Assembly: GCA_000403255.2 (NCBI GenBank)
Contig: KE159593.1
Span: 423,712-487,711, forward strand
Source: Lachnospiraceae bacterium 3-1
GTDB taxonomy: Bacteria; Bacillota; Clostridia; Lachnospirales; Lachnospiraceae
Direction: 5' to 3'
DNA: 64,000 nt
Numbering within the stretch: position 1 is the stretch's first letter; every line of letters begins with the position of its first letter. The position numbers were made by a program, and so were the translations under genes. The notes below the pieces were generated by a model. The model was not told the DNA's origin. It worked only from the letters and a program-made list of their open reading frames with translations, and did not search any database. Of the stretch, positions 17,087-34,532 are shown piece after piece.

Positions 17087-17122
17087 GTGTTCATATCAGA
17101 GAAAAAGGAAGAATACGAAGAA

Positions 17123-17836
17123 ATGCAAAAGTTAATGATTGGAATTTGCGATGATGAAGAGATTATATTGGAAAAATTGCAAGAACTGGTAGAACAGACA
17201 GTGAGAAGAAAAGGGCTGGAATATGAAATTCTGGCCTTTTCTTCTGGAGAAGCATTGCTTTTACAGGCAGGAAATTTGGAAATTGTTTTCCTGGATATTG
17301 ATATGCCTGGATTGGATGGGATAGAAACTGGCCTGAGGCTTCGTCAAATAAATCCAACATGTACAATAATTATGGCAACTGGAATGGAGGAACGGTATAA
17401 AGAGGCATTTTATGTTCAGGCAATTCGTTTTGTTACAAAGCCCTTTATTTGTTTAGAAATTGAAGAAGCTATTGATGCTTGTCTAAAGAGGAGGATTGGG
17501 TCTAAAACAGTAGAAGTGTACAGAAACCGAAACTTATATCAGGTATGCCAGAGGGATATTGTATATGTAAGTTCTTATGGCAGCTATGTGGAATTGATGG
17601 TGCGAGGAAAGAGGTTTCGAAAAGAAGTCTCTATGGAAGAGATGGAAAAAGTATTGGAGCCCCAATTGTTTTCTCGTGTCAGTCGTAAGTATTTGGTGAA
17701 TTTTGCACATGTAGATGGCTATAAAAATGGCATTGTTATGATTGAGGAAGAAGAGATTAAGGTGTCAAGAAGGAGAAAAAAGGCGTTTGAAGACGCATAT
17801 ATAAAGTTTGACTTGGAGTATAGAGATAAGATGTAA
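17123..17836 (+). CDS. LytTR-family response regulator (AgrA-like)
   Basis: The receiver domain (residues about 4-120) has the acidic pocket ICDDEE, phospho-acceptor near D58 in VFLDIDMPGLDG and the Lys in VTKPF. The C-terminal LytTR DNA-binding domain shows DIVYVSSYGSYVEL, FSRVSRKYLVN and VKVSRRRKKAF-like residues. The ORF is open from 17087; I choose the ATG at 17123 (MQKLMIGICDD). It sits directly before the kinase gene. LytTR proteins bind paired 9-bp repeats about two helical turns apart. Such repeats lie at 19176-19201 and at 34130-34155, so both promoters are likely targets. Confidence 0.93.
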   Translation: MQKLMIGICDDEEIILEKLQELVEQTVRRKGLEYEILAFSSGEALLLQAGNLEIVFLDIDMPGLDGIETGLRLRQINPTCTIIMATGMEERYKEAFYVQAIRFVTKPFICLEIEEAIDACLKRRIGSKTVEVYRNRNLYQVCQRDIVYVSSYGSYVELMVRGKRFRKEVSMEEMEKVLEPQLFSRVSRKYLVNFAHVDGYKNGIVMIEEEEIKVSRRRKKAFEDAYIKFDLEYRDKM

Positions 17837-17843
17837 TTTTCGA

Positions 17844-19184
17844 ATGATAAGGGAAGAAACAGGGATGGCAGGGATAAGATTGTGTGGCTTTCTGATTGAA
17901 CTTTGGGAATATCAACTGGGGATGAAGGCATTTTTTTCTGTAAGGCTGCATAGGAAATGGATGGCGGCGGTGGGAATAGTTTTGTATGGAATGTTGGCAT
18001 TTTCTGGATGGATAAAAGAAGAGTATATGTATCTGAGTGCATATGCTTTGACAGTGGCATTGATTTTTTTTATGGCAGATACAAATTGGAAAAGGAAAGC
18101 AGGAGAAATACCGATACTGCTTTTTATCATTTCATGTATGGAAAGTTTCTTTGAAGAAGGCGTGTATGCTGTGCTGAAATGGCATGGAGGGACTGTCTTA
18201 GCCAGAAAATGGGATTATTTAGGCGGCAGTATTGTAACTTTGGGAGTACTAGCTGTACTTGTAATTTTTCATGATAGAAAACATCGGAAGGAAAAAGAAG
18301 ATATCATTCGTTTTATCCCCAAATGGATGGTTTTTTTTGTGATTCTTATGGCAGTAGAAGTGATATTGACTGTTACTGGACTAAGTTACGCAAAAAAATA
18401 TATTATGGATGATAGATTCAGAATTTTTGCAGGGCTCTTAAGTTCAGCAGCTTATTTTGCGGTATGCATATTGGGAATTTTTTTTATTTATATAAAAAAA
18501 ATCAATGAAAGATTGGAGTTGGCTGTGGAAACAGAACGGCGTCTAAAAGAAATGCAGAAGAAGTACTATGAAGACATGCTTATGAGGGAAGAAGAAACCA
18601 GAAAGTATCGTCATGATTTAAGAAACCATTTGATTTGCCTGTATGGACTGGCGAAGGAAGAACAGGCTAAGAAGGTTATGGCTTACATTAGGAATATGGA
18701 GGAACAGGCAAGATTTATACAACAAAAGTTTTATACAACAGGGAACAAGGTTTTAGATGCTCTTGTGAATTATTATGGTTCTCTTATAGAGTTAGATACA
18801 AGGTTAAGAGTCTCAGGGAAAGTAGAACATGATTTGGAAATTACAGATACAGATTTATGCACTGTATTTGGAAATCTCCTGCAAAATGCAGTAGAAGGGG
18901 TGATGCGGGTTCAGGGTGGAGAGAAATATATATGGATCCAGTTTGAACAGGGGCGAGAATATTTGAGAATTAGAATTGAAAATAGCGCAGTATTTCCTGA
19001 AAATAATATATTGCAGACGAAAAAATTTTTTACGGAAACAATAAAGAAGGATAAAAGGAATCATGGGATTGGGATAAGTAATGTTCAAGAGACTGTCAAA
19101 CGTTATCAGGGAAAAGTTAATGTTCTTAGAGAGGGACAGAAAGTTGTTGCAGAGGTAATATTGAGGAATAGAGTAACCGTTTGA
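17844..19184 (+). CDS. GHKL sensor histidine kinase (AgrC-like)
   Basis: About five or six membrane segments in the first 200 residues, then a cytoplasmic kinase region. The phospho-acceptor is H257 in KYRHDLRNHLICL, and the N-box is FGNLLQNAVEGV. The G-box HGIGISNVQETVKRYQG is typical of GHKL kinases that sense peptides. The frame is open from a TTG at 17808. ATG 17844 or 17865 is more likely, and the gene follows the regulator by seven bases. The regulated promoter overlaps its last codons. A decayed paralogue with the same C-terminal residues lies at 34147-34318. Confidence 0.92.
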   Translation: MIREETGMAGIRLCGFLIELWEYQLGMKAFFSVRLHRKWMAAVGIVLYGMLAFSGWIKEEYMYLSAYALTVALIFFMADTNWKRKAGEIPILLFIISCMESFFEEGVYAVLKWHGGTVLARKWDYLGGSIVTLGVLAVLVIFHDRKHRKEKEDIIRFIPKWMVFFVILMAVEVILTVTGLSYAKKYIMDDRFRIFAGLLSSAAYFAVCILGIFFIYIKKINERLELAVETERRLKEMQKKYYEDMLMREEETRKYRHDLRNHLICLYGLAKEEQAKKVMAYIRNMEEQARFIQQKFYTTGNKVLDALVNYYGSLIELDTRLRVSGKVEHDLEITDTDLCTVFGNLLQNAVEGVMRVQGGEKYIWIQFEQGREYLRIRIENSAVFPENNILQTKKFFTETIKKDKRNHGIGISNVQETVKRYQGKVNVLREGQKVVAEVILRNRVTV

Positions 19185-19243
19185 GAACTTATCTGACCGT
19201 TTAAGAAGTTAAAATTGTAATCCATAATGGTATTTGCTACTAT
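19174..19243 (+). promoter_or_regulatory. LytTR-controlled promoter, copy 1
   Basis: Two ACCGTT repeats start at 19176 and 19196, exactly 20 bp apart. The -35 is TTGTAA (19215-19220), the spacer is 17 bases and the -10 is TACTAT (19238-19243). The first repeat overlaps the stop codon of the kinase gene. The same block occurs at 34088-34157 on the minus strand with six differences in 70 bases. Confidence 0.85.
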
Positions 19244-19268: not shown

Positions 19269-19340
19269 ATGGATTATTTTTATTTGAATGTAACGTCATT
19301 GTGGAAAGATTTTTTTGAATTGATTTTTCCAATAAAGTAA
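19269..19340 (+). CDS. 23-residue hydrophobic peptide, candidate signal or effector
   Basis: An ORF of 23 codons directly downstream of the LytTR-type promoter, 26 bases after the -10. AGAAAGGGG lies about ten bases before the ATG. The peptide begins MDYFYLNVTSLWK and ends LIFPIK. It is rich in aromatic residues and could form an amphipathic helix. It has no leader, no Gly-Gly site and no Cys. It could be a leaderless signal, a PSM-like membrane-active peptide, or simply a leader ORF. The position matches that of the 35-residue peptide gene in the second module. Between 19341 and 19473 only very short frames occur. Confidence 0.55.
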   Translation: MDYFYLNVTSLWKDFFELIFPIK

Positions 19341-29106: not shown

Positions 29107-31943
29107 AGCCTGTAAAATTAATGATGTCCGCCTTTGGCTCTTACGCAGGCCAGGAAATCATAGACTTTGCTGGAATTGGTCAGGGTGTTTTTTTGATTAC
29201 CGGAGATACGGGAGCTGGAAAAACCACGGTATTTGACGCGATTACCTATGCGCTATATGATGAGACCAGCGGAGGCAAGCGGGAAGGGGATATGATGCGC
29301 AGTCAGTATGCAGACCCAGATACGCCTACGTTTGTGGAATTTACCTTTCTTTATGACAAAAAAGAATATACGGTTCGAAGGAATCCCAATTATAGAAGAA
29401 CCAGCAAACGGAAAAATAAAGAAGGGGAGTATACGCTCACAAAAGAAAATGCATCCGTAATGCTGCGTATGCCCGATGGTCAGGAATATCCAGGAAAAAT
29501 TAGGGAAATCAATGAAAAAATTGTAGAAATTATAGGAGTGGGCGCACCGCAGTTTACTCAGATTGCCATGATTGCTCAGGGGGAATTTATCAAATTGCTC
29601 CATGCATCTTCCAGGGAACGAAAGGAGATATTTGCAAGGCTTTTCGATACCAATGTGTATGCTTATCTCCAGATGAAGCTGCGGGAGGAAAGCAAATCCT
29701 TGTATGGTCAGTTGGAGGACAACCGCAAATTATGCAGCCATGAAATCCAGGGAATCCAGTATCTTCCTGAAAGCAGTTATATTGAGGAATGGGAGGAGTG
29801 CTGCGGTTTGTTGGAAACAAATCCCAGACGAATACAGGAGATTCTTTCTTATCTCTTACAGGAAATGAAAGAAAAGGAAGAAAAAATTCGGGAAGAAGAA
29901 AATAAGAACCGCAGACTGGCAGAAGAAAATGCCTGGAATATCCGCCAGGCAAAGGGAATTAACCAATTATTCACTCAGGCAAGGAATGCAGAGAAGGAAA
30001 TTGCTGCTCGTATCACATTGATAGAGGATCAGAAAACGCAGGAGCAGAAGGAGGAAAAACAGCTTCAAAATCTTAAGGAACAGTGGAAAGAGCAGCTTCC
30101 GAAGCTGTCCCAGCAGATTGCAAGCTGGCGGAATCTTCTGCCAAAGTATGAGGACTTACAGGAAAAACAAAAGATTGCAGCTTCCACAGGAAGAAAATTA
30201 CAGGCATCCGAGCATGCATCCAGACAGGCAAAGGAAAATCTGGAAAAGATACGTATGGCAATACAAAATGCAAAGGAGCAAATCAGTGATTTGGAGGGAT
30301 GTACTGTTCAGGTTTCTACCCTTTCGGAAAGAAAAAAAGAGCTGGCAGGAAGGCAAGCTTTGCTGGAGGATATGGCTGCTACTTACAAAAAGTGGCAGTT
30401 ATCGGAGAAAAAGAGGAAACAGGAACAGGAGAAAGTACAGAAATCTCTGGATTTGTTTCAGGAAAAAAGCCAGGAATACGAGGAAAAGAACCGCAGCTTT
30501 ATTGCGGAACAGGTGGGGATTATTGCCGAACATTTGAAGGAAGGACAGCCATGTCCAGTATGCGGTTCTTTGGAACATCCCAAAAAAGCACAGCTTTCTT
30601 CTCATGCGGTAACCAAACAGCAGGTAGAGCAGGCAAAAAAGGAACGGGAACAGGCAGACAAAAAGCTGAATGAGTGCAGGGAGGGTTTTCAGAAAGTACA
30701 GGAAACCTGCGAAAAAGAAAAATCATTGTTGGAACAGGATGGAATGCGTATGTTTGGCGGAGACTTTCAGCCAAGCATGATTCCATCAGCCCTGGAAGAA
30801 TCCATAGGAAAAAATCAGGAAACAGAGGCTCTTTTGGAAGAAGCAAAAAGGAAAGAAAAGCGGTTAAAACAACAGCAGGAAAAACAGGAACAACTAGAAA
30901 AAGAGCAGAAGCAATTGGAAAGCCAACAGGAAAAATTGGCACAAAGCCAGTATGAGGCAAGACTTGCCTTTGAAAAGGCGAATCAGGCACAGGAATTGTT
31001 GGCAAAAGAGCTGCCATTTGCAGAAGTCCAAGAATTGCATCGGTGTCTGCAGAAAGCGGAAACAGAGAAATCTTCCATAGAAAAACGACAGGCCAAGGCA
31101 GAGGATTCTTTGCAAAGGCTAAAACGGGACATAGCAGAAAGCCAGGGGATTTTGGCACAACAGCGGAAGAACCAAAAACTGTTAGAACAACAGCTAGAAG
31201 GAAAAGAGCCAGTAGAAACAGATGGGTTGCTGGAATATGACCACCAATTGAAGCAGGCCATTGACCTTTTGGAAAAAGAAAAACTACAGCTTGCAGCCGC
31301 AAAAACAAGAAACCAGCAAGGAAAAAAGCAGCTTGAAAAACTGTATCAGAAACGGGAAATCCTAAAAGAAAGATATGAGATGGTAAGCAATCTGGATAAG
31401 ACGGCAAATGGAAACCTGCCGCAACATATCCGGTTGGATTTTCAAACCTATGTACAGCGGCGTTATTTTCGAACAATGATTGCTGAAGCCAATCGAAGAC
31501 TGATAAAAATGAATGGGAACCAATTTATGCTCCAATGTCGGGAGGTGGAACATCTGGGGAAGCAAGGAGAGGCAGGGTTGGACCTAGATGTGTATGATTT
31601 GGTGACAGATCAGGTGAGGGATGTAAAAACCCTTTCCGGTGGGGAATCTTTTCTAGCCGCCCTTTCCATGGCTCTTGGTATGACGGATGTGATACAACAC
31701 ACCGCCGGGCGGGTACATCTGGATACTATGTTTATCGATGAGGGATTTGGTTCTCTGGATGAAGAGGCACGAGACCGGGCAATCGCTATTTTGAATGAAT
31801 TGGCCGGGAATACCAGAATGGTGGGTATTATTTCCCATGTAACGGAATTGAAGGAGCAGATGGACCGAAAGCTAATGATTTCTAAGAGTGATAAGGGAAG
31901 CCATGCAAAGTGGGTGATAGAGAGTTATTACTCCGGCGGTTAA
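29103..31943 (+). CDS. sbcC: Exonuclease subunit SbcC
   Basis: The Rad50-like ATPase partner of SbcD. It has Walker A TGDTGAGKTTVFDAITYA near the N-terminus and two long coiled coils around the zinc hook (GQPCPVCGSLEHP, about residue 480). The signature is KTLSGGESFLAALSMALG and the Walker B is MFIDEGFGSLDEE. The ORF is open from 29085, but AGGGGAAG and the ATGA overlap with sbcD point to the ATG at 29103 (946 aa). The last codons form one arm of a 20-bp terminator stem. Confidence 0.96.
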   Translation: MKPVKLMMSAFGSYAGQEIIDFAGIGQGVFLITGDTGAGKTTVFDAITYALYDETSGGKREGDMMRSQYADPDTPTFVEFTFLYDKKEYTVRRNPNYRRTSKRKNKEGEYTLTKENASVMLRMPDGQEYPGKIREINEKIVEIIGVGAPQFTQIAMIAQGEFIKLLHASSRERKEIFARLFDTNVYAYLQMKLREESKSLYGQLEDNRKLCSHEIQGIQYLPESSYIEEWEECCGLLETNPRRIQEILSYLLQEMKEKEEKIREEENKNRRLAEENAWNIRQAKGINQLFTQARNAEKEIAARITLIEDQKTQEQKEEKQLQNLKEQWKEQLPKLSQQIASWRNLLPKYEDLQEKQKIAASTGRKLQASEHASRQAKENLEKIRMAIQNAKEQISDLEGCTVQVSTLSERKKELAGRQALLEDMAATYKKWQLSEKKRKQEQEKVQKSLDLFQEKSQEYEEKNRSFIAEQVGIIAEHLKEGQPCPVCGSLEHPKKAQLSSHAVTKQQVEQAKKEREQADKKLNECREGFQKVQETCEKEKSLLEQDGMRMFGGDFQPSMIPSALEESIGKNQETEALLEEAKRKEKRLKQQQEKQEQLEKEQKQLESQQEKLAQSQYEARLAFEKANQAQELLAKELPFAEVQELHRCLQKAETEKSSIEKRQAKAEDSLQRLKRDIAESQGILAQQRKNQKLLEQQLEGKEPVETDGLLEYDHQLKQAIDLLEKEKLQLAAAKTRNQQGKKQLEKLYQKREILKERYEMVSNLDKTANGNLPQHIRLDFQTYVQRRYFRTMIAEANRRLIKMNGNQFMLQCREVEHLGKQGEAGLDLDVYDLVTDQVRDVKTLSGGESFLAALSMALGMTDVIQHTAGRVHLDTMFIDEGFGSLDEEARDRAIAILNELAGNTRMVGIISHVTELKEQMDRKLMISKSDKGSHAKWVIESYYSGG

Positions 31944-31974
31944 ATTTCGTCGATATTTAACCGCCGGAGTAATA
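31926..31974. terminator. Bidirectional terminator between sbcC and the RiPP-like operon
   Basis: A perfect 20-bp stem (31926-31945 with 31955-31974) and a 9-base loop. It contains the stop codon of sbcC and ends one base before the MFS stop codon on the other strand. The GC-rich core with A/T flanks suits termination in both directions. Confidence 0.85.
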
Positions 31975-33141
31975 TTATGCTTTAGTATTATAAATCTGCT
32001 TAAAGACTATACAGCCAACAAACAAAACAGTGCAAAGTATACCAAGAGTGATATATTCAAGTTTTGCCCTCATATTTATAATAGAAAATAAGAATAACAA
32101 TGCTGAGCTTCCAAAATTGCATCCCAATGAAATAATTGAAAATGCAGTATTTCTAAAAGAATCATCATTAATATTCTGATTAACCAAAGAAGAAAACATT
32201 GGGGATGTAATTCCCCACACAAGCCTATAAACACATACAAATATGAATATTAGTAACACTGCTGATGTAATTCCAAGTCCAAACATACAAAATGAGAGTA
32301 ATATCAAACATATACTAATCAATATTTTCTCAGACTTAAAAATTCTTTTTAGTTTTTTAAAAAAATAAGCTCCACTACTAGCAAAAATAGCAGCAATAAA
32401 ATACAATAGACCATTATATTTTTCGGCTATTGATGAGTTCAATAAGTATGTTTGCAAAATCTGATAGCCTGTTACTAGAACAATTGAAAAACATATATTC
32501 AACAAGCATATTATTAACAATTGTCTATTAGAAACAATTTCAAAGAAATACTTTTTTACAATGTCATTAACATTGTTATTAATACCATCTGTTCTAATAC
32601 GGGGAAGTAAACTTACAATAAAAAGCAATATAATATTTGCAATAAAAGTAAACCAAAATACATATGCTAATTCTCCGTTTTTTAAAATTACAAAACAACC
32701 TAGAAAAGAAAAGCATAATGCAATCCATTGCAATGAATATGACTTTGAAACAATATCATCAAAATCCAAATTATTTTTTGTGTCTTTACAATACTTATAA
32801 ATAATGCTGTCAAATGGCCCTGAAAAGAAAGTACTTCCTACTCCCAAAATAAACTCTCCAATATATAGCAGTACAGTTGTCCCATTTATAAAAAGAAACA
32901 TTGCAATAGCTGTTAAAGCAGCTCCAATAATCAAAGAGTTATTTTCTCCAATTTTGTCACCTAAAACTCCTGTTGGTATTTCGAGTAAAAAAACAGATAA
33001 TGAATATACCGCAAACAAGCTTGTGATTTGCGCACTATTTAAGCCATGCTCCAATTGACAAAAAGACGCAAAAACAGGCGTTGTAAAATTAATGGTCATA
33101 AAAAAAGATAGAAGATATATTAGCCACTTTAGTCGTTTCAT
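31975..33141 (-). CDS. MFS transporter, likely exporter of the RiPP-like operon
   Basis: A 388-aa protein with about 12 membrane segments and the MFS loop motif GVLGDKIGENNSLIIG between helices 2 and 3. It begins MKRLKWLIYLLSFFMTINF. The start overlaps the stop of the upstream protein gene by four bases, so it is co-translated with it. MFS exporters are common next to RiPP genes that encode cobalamin-type methyltransferases. Base composition is markedly more AT-rich than sbcC. Export of, or resistance to, the product of the 35-residue gene is inferred. Confidence 0.85.
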   Translation of the reverse strand: MKRLKWLIYLLSFFMTINFTTPVFASFCQLEHGLNSAQITSLFAVYSLSVFLLEIPTGVLGDKIGENNSLIIGAALTAIAMFLFINGTTVLLYIGEFILGVGSTFFSGPFDSIIYKYCKDTKNNLDFDDIVSKSYSLQWIALCFSFLGCFVILKNGELAYVFWFTFIANIILLFIVSLLPRIRTDGINNNVNDIVKKYFFEIVSNRQLLIICLLNICFSIVLVTGYQILQTYLLNSSIAEKYNGLLYFIAAIFASSGAYFFKKLKRIFKSEKILISICLILLSFCMFGLGITSAVLLIFIFVCVYRLVWGITSPMFSSLVNQNINDDSFRNTAFSIISLGCNFGSSALLFLFSIINMRAKLEYITLGILCTVLFVGCIVFKQIYNTKA

Positions 33142-33878
33142 ATTACGCCTCCGTATTTCCCAATTTTTATTGCATTTTTAAGTGATGAAACTAGGAAGCA
33201 GCATACACTCGATAATTTTTCTTCATCCAGTTTCAGGGTAAGAATAGGACAAATATCGGTATTACATTTTGGAGGCGTAGTATTGCTGCAACCATTAACC
33301 CGTGAAACCAATAGCGGGCAATAATAGTATTCCCCTTCAGTGCTAATTTGTATTCTATCAAACGCTCCACGTCCTTCACTTTTTGCTATAACATTATCTT
33401 TGGGAAGAAATGCGGTTTCAACAGAAATATCCACCGAAGCATTAATCTGTTTCAGTGCATTATAGATATCATACAAAAGCCCAAACCATTCCTTTGCTTT
33501 CTTGGCTATATCGCTTATTTCTTCAACAGATGATAATTCCAGAAAAACATCGTTAAAGTTTTCATCATATTTCTTTAAAAAATCAATTCCAAGCAATGGC
33601 ATATTTTCATTTGCAGCATTAGCAAATATTCTCTCCCCAAGCATAGTATGCATGGACATAAGGGCTATGCTTATTTGTTTATATTTATCAACACCTATAT
33701 AATTTGCAAAAAGCATATTGGAGTATAATACAGTAGTTTTTATCTGCATTGATTCTGCAATTGTCTTTAAAATATCTAACCCTATGCAAGGCAAATCCAA
33801 CAATGAAAAGGGTGGTACAATTAGTAAAATTTCACTATCAGAGTTATTATCTAAAATTTGACGTATTTTATTATCCAT
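33138..33878 (-). CDS. Protein resembling the N-terminal domain of RiPP radical-SAM C-methyltransferases, without the radical SAM part
   Basis: The ORF is open from 33920. AGAGGGA fits the ATG at 33878 (MDNKIRQILDNN), giving 246 aa. Residues about 16-95 read like the cobalamin-binding-like start of RiPP maturation radical-SAM C-methyltransferases: LLIVPPFSLLDLPCIGLDIL, then VLYSNMLFANYIG and MLGERIFANAA. Those enzymes are about 600 aa and continue into a CxxxCxxC radical SAM domain. Here no such motif exists. The C-terminal third instead has scattered cysteines (YYYCPLLVSRVNGCSN, KCNTDICP, SVCCF) and no known family. It lies between the peptide gene and the exporter. Assignment is from memory of the family pattern, not from alignment. 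Confidence 0.7.
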   Translation of the reverse strand: MDNKIRQILDNNSDSEILLIVPPFSLLDLPCIGLDILKTIAESMQIKTTVLYSNMLFANYIGVDKYKQISIALMSMHTMLGERIFANAANENMPLLGIDFLKKYDENFNDVFLELSSVEEISDIAKKAKEWFGLLYDIYNALKQINASVDISVETAFLPKDNVIAKSEGRGAFDRIQISTEGEYYYCPLLVSRVNGCSNTTPPKCNTDICPILTLKLDEEKLSSVCCFLVSSLKNAIKIGKYGGVI

Positions 33879-33897
33879 ATTCTTTCCCTCTAAATAA

Positions 33898-33934
33898 ACG
33901 TCGCTAAATATTCTATACAAATATCTAGCGACGT
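33898..33934 (-). terminator. Attenuator-like hairpin between peptide gene and downstream operon
   Basis: Arms 33898-33912 and 33920-33934 pair over 15 positions with one G-T pair and a 7-base loop. It sits 19 bases after the peptide stop and 19 bases before the next start codon. A leaky terminator here would give more peptide than processing protein, as is common in RiPP operons. Confidence 0.7.
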
Positions 33935-33953
33935 CATTCTCAAAATGTAATTC

Positions 33954-34061
33954 TTAAATTACATGTCCACTGCATACGTCTGCTGACATAAGAAAGTCTT
34001 CAGCGCTAGCATCAAAATCAAAATCCTCTTCTGGCATTTCAAGGTTTTTTATTTCTTCCAT
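33954..34061 (-). CDS. 35-residue precursor-like peptide
   Basis: A 35-codon ORF with a strong AAGGAGG eight bases before the ATG at 34061. The first 25 residues are acidic and leader-like (MEEIKNLEMPEEDFDFD), followed by ASAEDFLM. The end is SADVCSGHVI, with the only Cys at residue 30. It is the first gene after the LytTR-type promoter copy 2 and is followed by a hairpin, a maturase-like protein and an exporter. This order fits a RiPP or modified signal peptide. No match to a named precursor family is known to me. Confidence 0.7.
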   Translation of the reverse strand: MEEIKNLEMPEEDFDFDASAEDFLMSADVCSGHVI

Positions 34062-34087
34062 GTCAAAATCCTCCTTTCTTTTTTTTA

Positions 34088-34157
34088 ATAGTAGCAAATA
34101 CTGCTATGGATTTCAATTTTAACCTTTTAAACGGTCAGATAAGTTCTCAAACGGTTA
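34088..34157 (-). promoter_or_regulatory. LytTR-controlled promoter, copy 2
   Basis: Reading on the minus strand: two ACCGTT repeats 20 bp apart (34150-34155 and 34130-34135), -35 TTGAAA (34111-34116), 17-base spacer and -10 TACTAT (34088-34093). It is 64 of 70 identical to the promoter after the intact kinase gene at 19174-19243, including all bases of both repeats and the sequence between them. It should respond to the same regulator. Confidence 0.85.
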
Positions 34158-34318
34158 ATTTATTCTTCAATATTACTTGTGTAATAACTTTCTGTTCTTT
34201 CATATTTCTGATATAAGCCATAGCCTTCTTAGATTGTTCTTCCTGTGCCAATGCATTCAAACAAATCAAATTATTTCTTAAGCCAGCTCCAATCTTTCAT
34301 TGTTTTTTATGTAAAAAA
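34147..34318 (-). pseudogene. Decayed GHKL kinase gene, three fragments with two deletions
   Basis: Minus-strand translation gives three pieces that match the intact kinase at 17844-19184 in order. First FYIKNNERLELA (intact: IYIKKINERLELA), then LRNNLICLNALAQEEQSKK and AMAYIRNM (intact: LRNHLICLYGLAKEEQAKK, VMAYIRNM), then KVITQVILKNKLTV and stop (intact: KVVAEVILRNRVTV). The segments between are missing and the first junction breaks the frame. The 5' side is cut off by an insertion-sequence remnant. The promoter overlaps its end just as in the intact module. Confidence 0.85.
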
Positions 34319-34322
34319 ATTG

Positions 34323-34505
34323 GGGGCTGTTGCAAAAGTAGATTAAATTATCTACTGGAATAGCAGTTCCTTTTTTTCTACCTGAAAACAGAAAACGGAC
34401 TCCCAGGAGACCGCAATCCATGTTCTGACCTATGCTTATTCCCAAAACATTATATAGAGCGAGGGCATCGCTCAATCATCTAACTTGACGATTTTGCGAC
34501 ACCCT
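34323..34505. mobile_element. Insertion-sequence remnant or MITE inserted in the kinase pseudogene
   Basis: About 183 bp with terminal inverted repeats (GGGGCTGTTGCAAAA at 34323-34337 against 34491-34505, 12 of 15). The GGGGCTGT(C/T)GCA start is shared with the element at 10641. It contains no intact transposase; a 65-codon minus frame that crosses it is not a real gene. It lies between the kinase remnant and the G5 lipoprotein gene. Confidence 0.65.
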
Positions 34506-34532
34506 CATTTTTGGAAAAGCAGTATACTTCCT

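Follow-up and report, generated by a model that had tools for sequence, protein, structure and literature searches.

The radical SAM C-methyltransferases of RiPP maturation are described by the profile TIGR03975 (rSAM_ocin_1), which extends over 606 positions. The gene order closest to that of the locus under study is found in Butyrivibrio sp. M55, where the gene of a TIGR03975 maturase is followed by that of a second radical SAM protein of 292 amino acids and, finally, by an MFS exporter gene like the one described below. The window, by which the whole analysed stretch of 64,000 nucleotides is meant, contains a 246-amino acid ORF that resembles TIGR03975 in the first 89 profile positions and in having a short peptide gene nearby, but lacks positions 90-606, that is, the radical SAM domain, the CX7CX2C motif, and the C-terminal part. 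Its residues 122-246 are 82% identical (E 3e-69) to the C-terminus of the 292-amino acid protein of M55, which carries the motif RRCNLHCPYC and belongs to the superfamily PF04055 (E 2.5e-17); the first approximately 171 residues of that protein, including its CX3CX2C motif, have no equivalent in the ORF.

Layout of the Locus and Similarities of the 246-Amino Acid ORF

The order of peptide gene, hairpin, 246-amino acid protein, and MFS exporter, as given by the first-pass annotation, was found complete on the minus strand. The peptide gene (33954..34061), preceded by an AAGGAGG ribosome site, encodes the 35-amino acid RiPP precursor-like product MEEIKNLEMPEEDFDFDASAEDFLMSADVCSGHVI. It is separated from the 246-amino acid ORF (33138..33878) by a hairpin (33898..33934; inverted-repeat pair I9) with a folding energy of -24.3 kcal/mol (z -7.1), which was equalled by none of 200 shuffles. 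The stop of the ORF overlaps by 4 nt with the start of the exporter gene (31975..33141), the product of which has 388 amino acids, is assigned to MFS_1 of Pfam (E 4.3e-23), is intact, and resembles the M55 exporter. The layout is that of a RiPP operon, as had been proposed. Judged from the sequence, the precursor, an operator-like site, and the exporter look intact, but both modifying enzymes, i.e., the maturases, appear to be broken. A 24-nt inverted repeat with 96% complementarity is located at 31926-31974, between the exporter gene and a convergent SbcC-like gene, and is likely a terminator common to the two.

The predicted maturase-like N-terminus was recovered by profile search, with positions 1-89 of TIGR03975 aligning to residues 17-107 of the ORF (E 3.2e-13). 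The score of 49.1 bits places the ORF outside the family, for which the curated cut-off is 281.85. A stretch of 89 profile positions is less than one whole cobalamin-binding domain, and the homology to the maturase stops near codon 125; a complete N-terminal cobalamin-binding-like domain is hence not present. No Pfam domain was found in the ORF even at E values of up to 10, PF04055 included, and the 246 amino acids contain neither CxxxCxxC nor the CX7CX2C motif read in the TIGR03975 relatives at loci L009, L010, L041, and L044. The absence of CxxxCxxC and the presence of a distinct Cys-rich tail had both been recognized correctly; this tail, however, is the C-terminus of a second gene, namely, that of the 292-amino acid radical SAM protein. 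A sequence search of the PDB returned three sequences at E <= 1, the best at a not meaningful E of 0.29. The structure prediction proposed earlier for the 246-amino acid protein was carried out with AlphaFold and is too weak for a fold comparison (mean pLDDT 39.5), the low value being uninformative either way because the alignment had six rows. The model of the M55 292-amino acid protein (mean pLDDT 49.6, two rows) is likewise too weak for use.

Upstream of the peptide gene, at 34073..34319 (minus strand), are the remains of a GHKL sensor kinase gene together with its downstream region. This remnant consists of three collinear fragments with identities of 86, 81, and 86% to the intact kinase encoded at 17808-19184 and is interrupted by two internal deletions, the second of which sits at a shared ACAG. 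The same three fragments could also have been produced by a local duplication that decayed later. The intact kinase gene is preceded by that of an intact LytTR response regulator (17087-19184 for the pair, plus strand), and the pair is followed by a 23-amino acid ORF, MDYFYLNVTSLWKDFFELIFPIK, at 19269-19340 (plus strand) behind an AAAGGGG site; the regulator/kinase pair and this ORF may form a regulatory locus that is controlled by a peptide. A 29-bp direct-repeat site (ACCGTTTGA..ACCGTTTAA; 19176-19204, plus strand), which we take to be LytTR-operator-like, lies at the end of the intact kinase gene. It recurs without mismatch 15 kb away at 34127-34155 (minus strand), on the upstream side of the peptide gene, with zero such recurrences expected by chance. 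Since the two sites are identical, the promoter of the peptide gene could still be a target of the intact regulator.

The locus is part of an AT-rich island with a G+C content of 26-36%, compared with 42-45% in the left flank and 37-45% in the right flank from 34500; such a composition is as in a stretch acquired from elsewhere. With the upstream kinase gene also being a remnant, the island seems to be decaying. A 58-bp stretch at 34453-34510 recurs on another contig of the same genome in a transposase-bearing locus, near transposase-like ORFs, and is presumably an IS1182-like insertion-sequence scar.

The Related Locus of Butyrivibrio sp. M55 and the Junction

Butyrivibrio sp. M55 was the sole relative obtained from a scan of species genomes (57 pattern matches). 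Its locus (L008, L044) agrees with that of the window in gene order and in the 4-nt overlap at the exporter start; it differs in that the two maturase genes are separate, with the first one split and incomplete. The C-terminal piece of the M55 maturase (profile positions 425-562, E 5.4e-25) lies directly upstream of the 292-amino acid protein gene, with an 8-nt overlap, and the middle of the maturase lies on another contig (profile positions 59-428; 298.9 bits, above the cut-off of 281.85), being 76% identical to residues 68-137 of the window ORF. Between these pieces, the gene is interrupted by an element flanked on either side by one and the same 8-base sequence, GTTCCACT (L008 1-358, L044 2598-2941), which we assume to be IS66-like on account of its proteins and the 8-bp duplications. 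As both contig ends enter seemingly one such element with the same 8 bases, they are regarded as the two sides of one insertion. The M55 maturase also misses about its first 70 codons. Codons 1-70 of the window ORF have no counterpart in M55 and are instead covered by TIGR03975 and by two relatives in frames of 611 and 674 amino acids (40% and 29% identity). Amino acid identity to M55 amounts to 86.5% over codons 74-125 (maturase), to 83.5% over 115 codons (second protein), and to 80.6% over the 386 codons compared for the exporter. The 35-amino acid peptide matched none of 79 genomes from the same genus as M55, in a search that had no positive control and, with a query of 35 amino acids, little power.

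In a codon-wise comparison, the 246-amino acid ORF tracks the maturase of M55 as far as approximately codon 125 and, from approximately codon 130, the second gene, so that the switch between the two parents takes about six codons. The ORF can thus be divided into a 5′ part corresponding to the start of a TIGR03975 maturase (codons 1-125; 33504..33878), the junction (about codons 126-131; 33486..33503), and a 3′ part corresponding to the C-terminus of the second radical SAM protein including the Cys-rich tail (codons 132-246; 33138..33485), all on the minus strand. The junction was scanned for nucleotide identity to both M55 genes in windows of 30 nt at steps of 15 nt. Windows that begin at codons 74-119 give values of 0.73-0.93 for the maturase and 0.17-0.40 for the second gene, and those that begin at codon 129 or later give 0.10-0.50 and 0.57-0.93, respectively; a single window, starting at codon 124, is in between, with 0.67 to the maturase and 0.73 to the second gene. 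Around the switch point, the two M55 parents have a short, imperfect stretch in common. The missing stretch comprises 923 + 1025 = 1948 nt in M55 coordinates, excluding the insertion sequence. The missing part of the maturase was sought elsewhere in the genome of the window, where the best match reached only E 0.009 at 27% identity. Since the gene order is the same in M55 and in the window, one internal deletion explains the 246-amino acid ORF. A split of the gene in M55, rather than a fusion in the window, was considered and rejected, since the M55 maturase pieces span profile positions 59-562; this span, together with the second protein's own radical SAM domain, is the ground for taking the separate state as ancestral.

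Searches for Stand-Alone and Intact Forms

The first-pass annotation had proposed a maturase domain that works alone, without a radical SAM enzyme. This has to be abandoned, as the corresponding locus of the M55 relative encodes both a maturase and another radical SAM protein, and the window ORF joins the start of the former to the end of the latter. The suggested search for homologues of a stand-alone domain gave none among 392 genomes of the order; the 120-amino acid N-terminal query matched three of them, namely, the own genome and the two long frames of 611 and 674 amino acids. The C-terminal 125 amino acids matched the own genome only, out of the same number of order genomes. With the whole ORF, six of 61 genomes were matched at E <= 0.1, which are the own genome and five weak ones (E 0.006-0.09). 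The titles among the literature matches listed do not mention a stand-alone maturase domain, and the terms "radical SAM," "rSAM," and "M55" are absent from the main text of PMC13289728 as far as it was available.

The M55 292-amino acid protein was similarly rare. It matched one of 397 family genomes at E <= 1e-18 (the own genome), one of 79 genomes from the M55 genus at E <= 1e-15 (M55 itself), and four of 398 phylum genomes at E <= 1e-18, i.e., the own genome and three of one genus, the latter covering residues 11-140 alone at 36% identity. In plasmids, three records were found with 33% identity over residues 12-114, and in viral contigs, 11 pattern matches contained no relatives. For the M55 maturase fragment, 56 plasmid records, 20 of which are listed, had less than 60% identity throughout, and four pattern matches in viral contigs again included no relative. 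The TIGR03975 cut-off was passed in two of 145 relatives. An intact two-maturase cluster was not present among the genome samples searched; since the genomes of the family, order, and phylum searches were drawn evenly from larger groups, such a cluster may exist. At locus L041 (71-3243), a TIGR03975-like maturase of at least 592 amino acids is encoded beside a divergent 394-amino acid radical SAM protein, which is another such pairing.

Origin and Fate of the 246-Amino Acid ORF

We are confident that the 246-amino acid ORF is a deletion fusion of two adjacent maturase genes in a decayed RiPP cluster and not a new type of system. The ancestral cluster would have comprised a sensor kinase, the 35-amino acid precursor, a TIGR03975 maturase of about 605 amino acids (the sum of 73 codons counted in the window and 532 in the pieces of M55), the second radical SAM protein (approximately 292 amino acids), and the MFS exporter. 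This ancestor is deduced from one relative, itself broken, because the samples searched yielded no intact cluster. A single in-frame deletion of some 1.95 kb across the short sequence common to both maturase genes would have removed the maturase beyond about codon 125 plus the first approximately 171 codons of the second gene, and it would have been by chance that the outer ends met in frame. Observed directly were the homology of each half to one of two adjacent genes, the abrupt change from one to the other, the loss of the motifs, and the kinase remnant; the occurrence of the deletion in this lineage, the inactivity of the product, and the fate of the peptide are what these observations suggest.

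The notion of a separate protein family consisting of the maturase N-terminal domain alone would agree with a TIGR03975 match that is confined to the N-terminus, but it is contradicted by the codon-wise tracking of two M55 genes, by the 82% identity between the remainder of the protein and a portion of a complete radical SAM protein, and by the location of both order relatives of the N-terminal part in the 611- and 674-amino acid frames; its probability is considered negligible. It is also very improbable that the genes are intact in the genome and that the contig is short of about 2 kb by an assembly artefact. The stretch common to the parents could have served as a collapse point, and the assembly alone was examined; in M55, however, that stretch is short and imperfect, no other contig yielded the missing part of the maturase, and the genome is 96.75% complete and 3.94% contaminated in 27 contigs.

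A functional new gene would be somewhat less improbable, though still unlikely. The in-frame fusion would then have been kept through a gained use, e.g., as a precursor-binding or immunity protein made from pieces of two maturases, with the N-terminal part and the Cys-rich tail binding or carrying the precursor or protecting the host without radical SAM chemistry. Such a role would be in line with a frame that is free of stops and lies between the precursor-like gene and the gene of an intact exporter, the start of which overlaps its stop, and with the low Ka/Ks of both halves. In comparison with M55, the first part has a Ka/Ks of 0.09 (52 codons), the second part of 0.06 (115 codons), and the MFS exporter of 0.10 (386 codons), values that are rough because Ks (0.74, 1.61, and 1.07, respectively) is near saturation. 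A low Ka/Ks is, however, expected also from the time before the deletion; it would fit two genes that were selected until recently and neither proves nor disproves that the fusion is maintained at present. Either a recent deletion or a fusion that is still kept could explain an in-frame, stop-free ORF with these values. A functional role is further opposed by the loss of all but about the first 89 of the 606 profile positions, by the failure to find such a fusion in the other genomes searched, and by the adjoining kinase gene being likewise a remnant.

Returning to the deletion fusion, the 246-amino acid product is most likely non-functional, because the radical SAM motifs of both parents are gone and the pieces of the two proteins are incomplete. 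The peptide, if made, would stay unmodified unless another enzyme acts in trans. The latter is possible, as there are weaker TIGR03975 matches elsewhere in the genome, which has three matches including the ORF of the window; the best one, a 594-amino acid frame on contig C21, scores 57.5 bits and is below the cut-off.

Summarizing, a false lead is removed, since a stand-alone maturase domain, if true, would be a new principle of RiPP biosynthesis; most likely, the 246-amino acid ORF is the scar of a deletion in a cluster that is of a known kind but broken. A TIGR03975 maturase would once have had a small radical SAM protein as its partner enzyme, together with an MFS exporter, and this two-enzyme cluster would have been broken in a different way in each of the two genomes in which it was found, that of the window and that of Butyrivibrio sp. 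M55.
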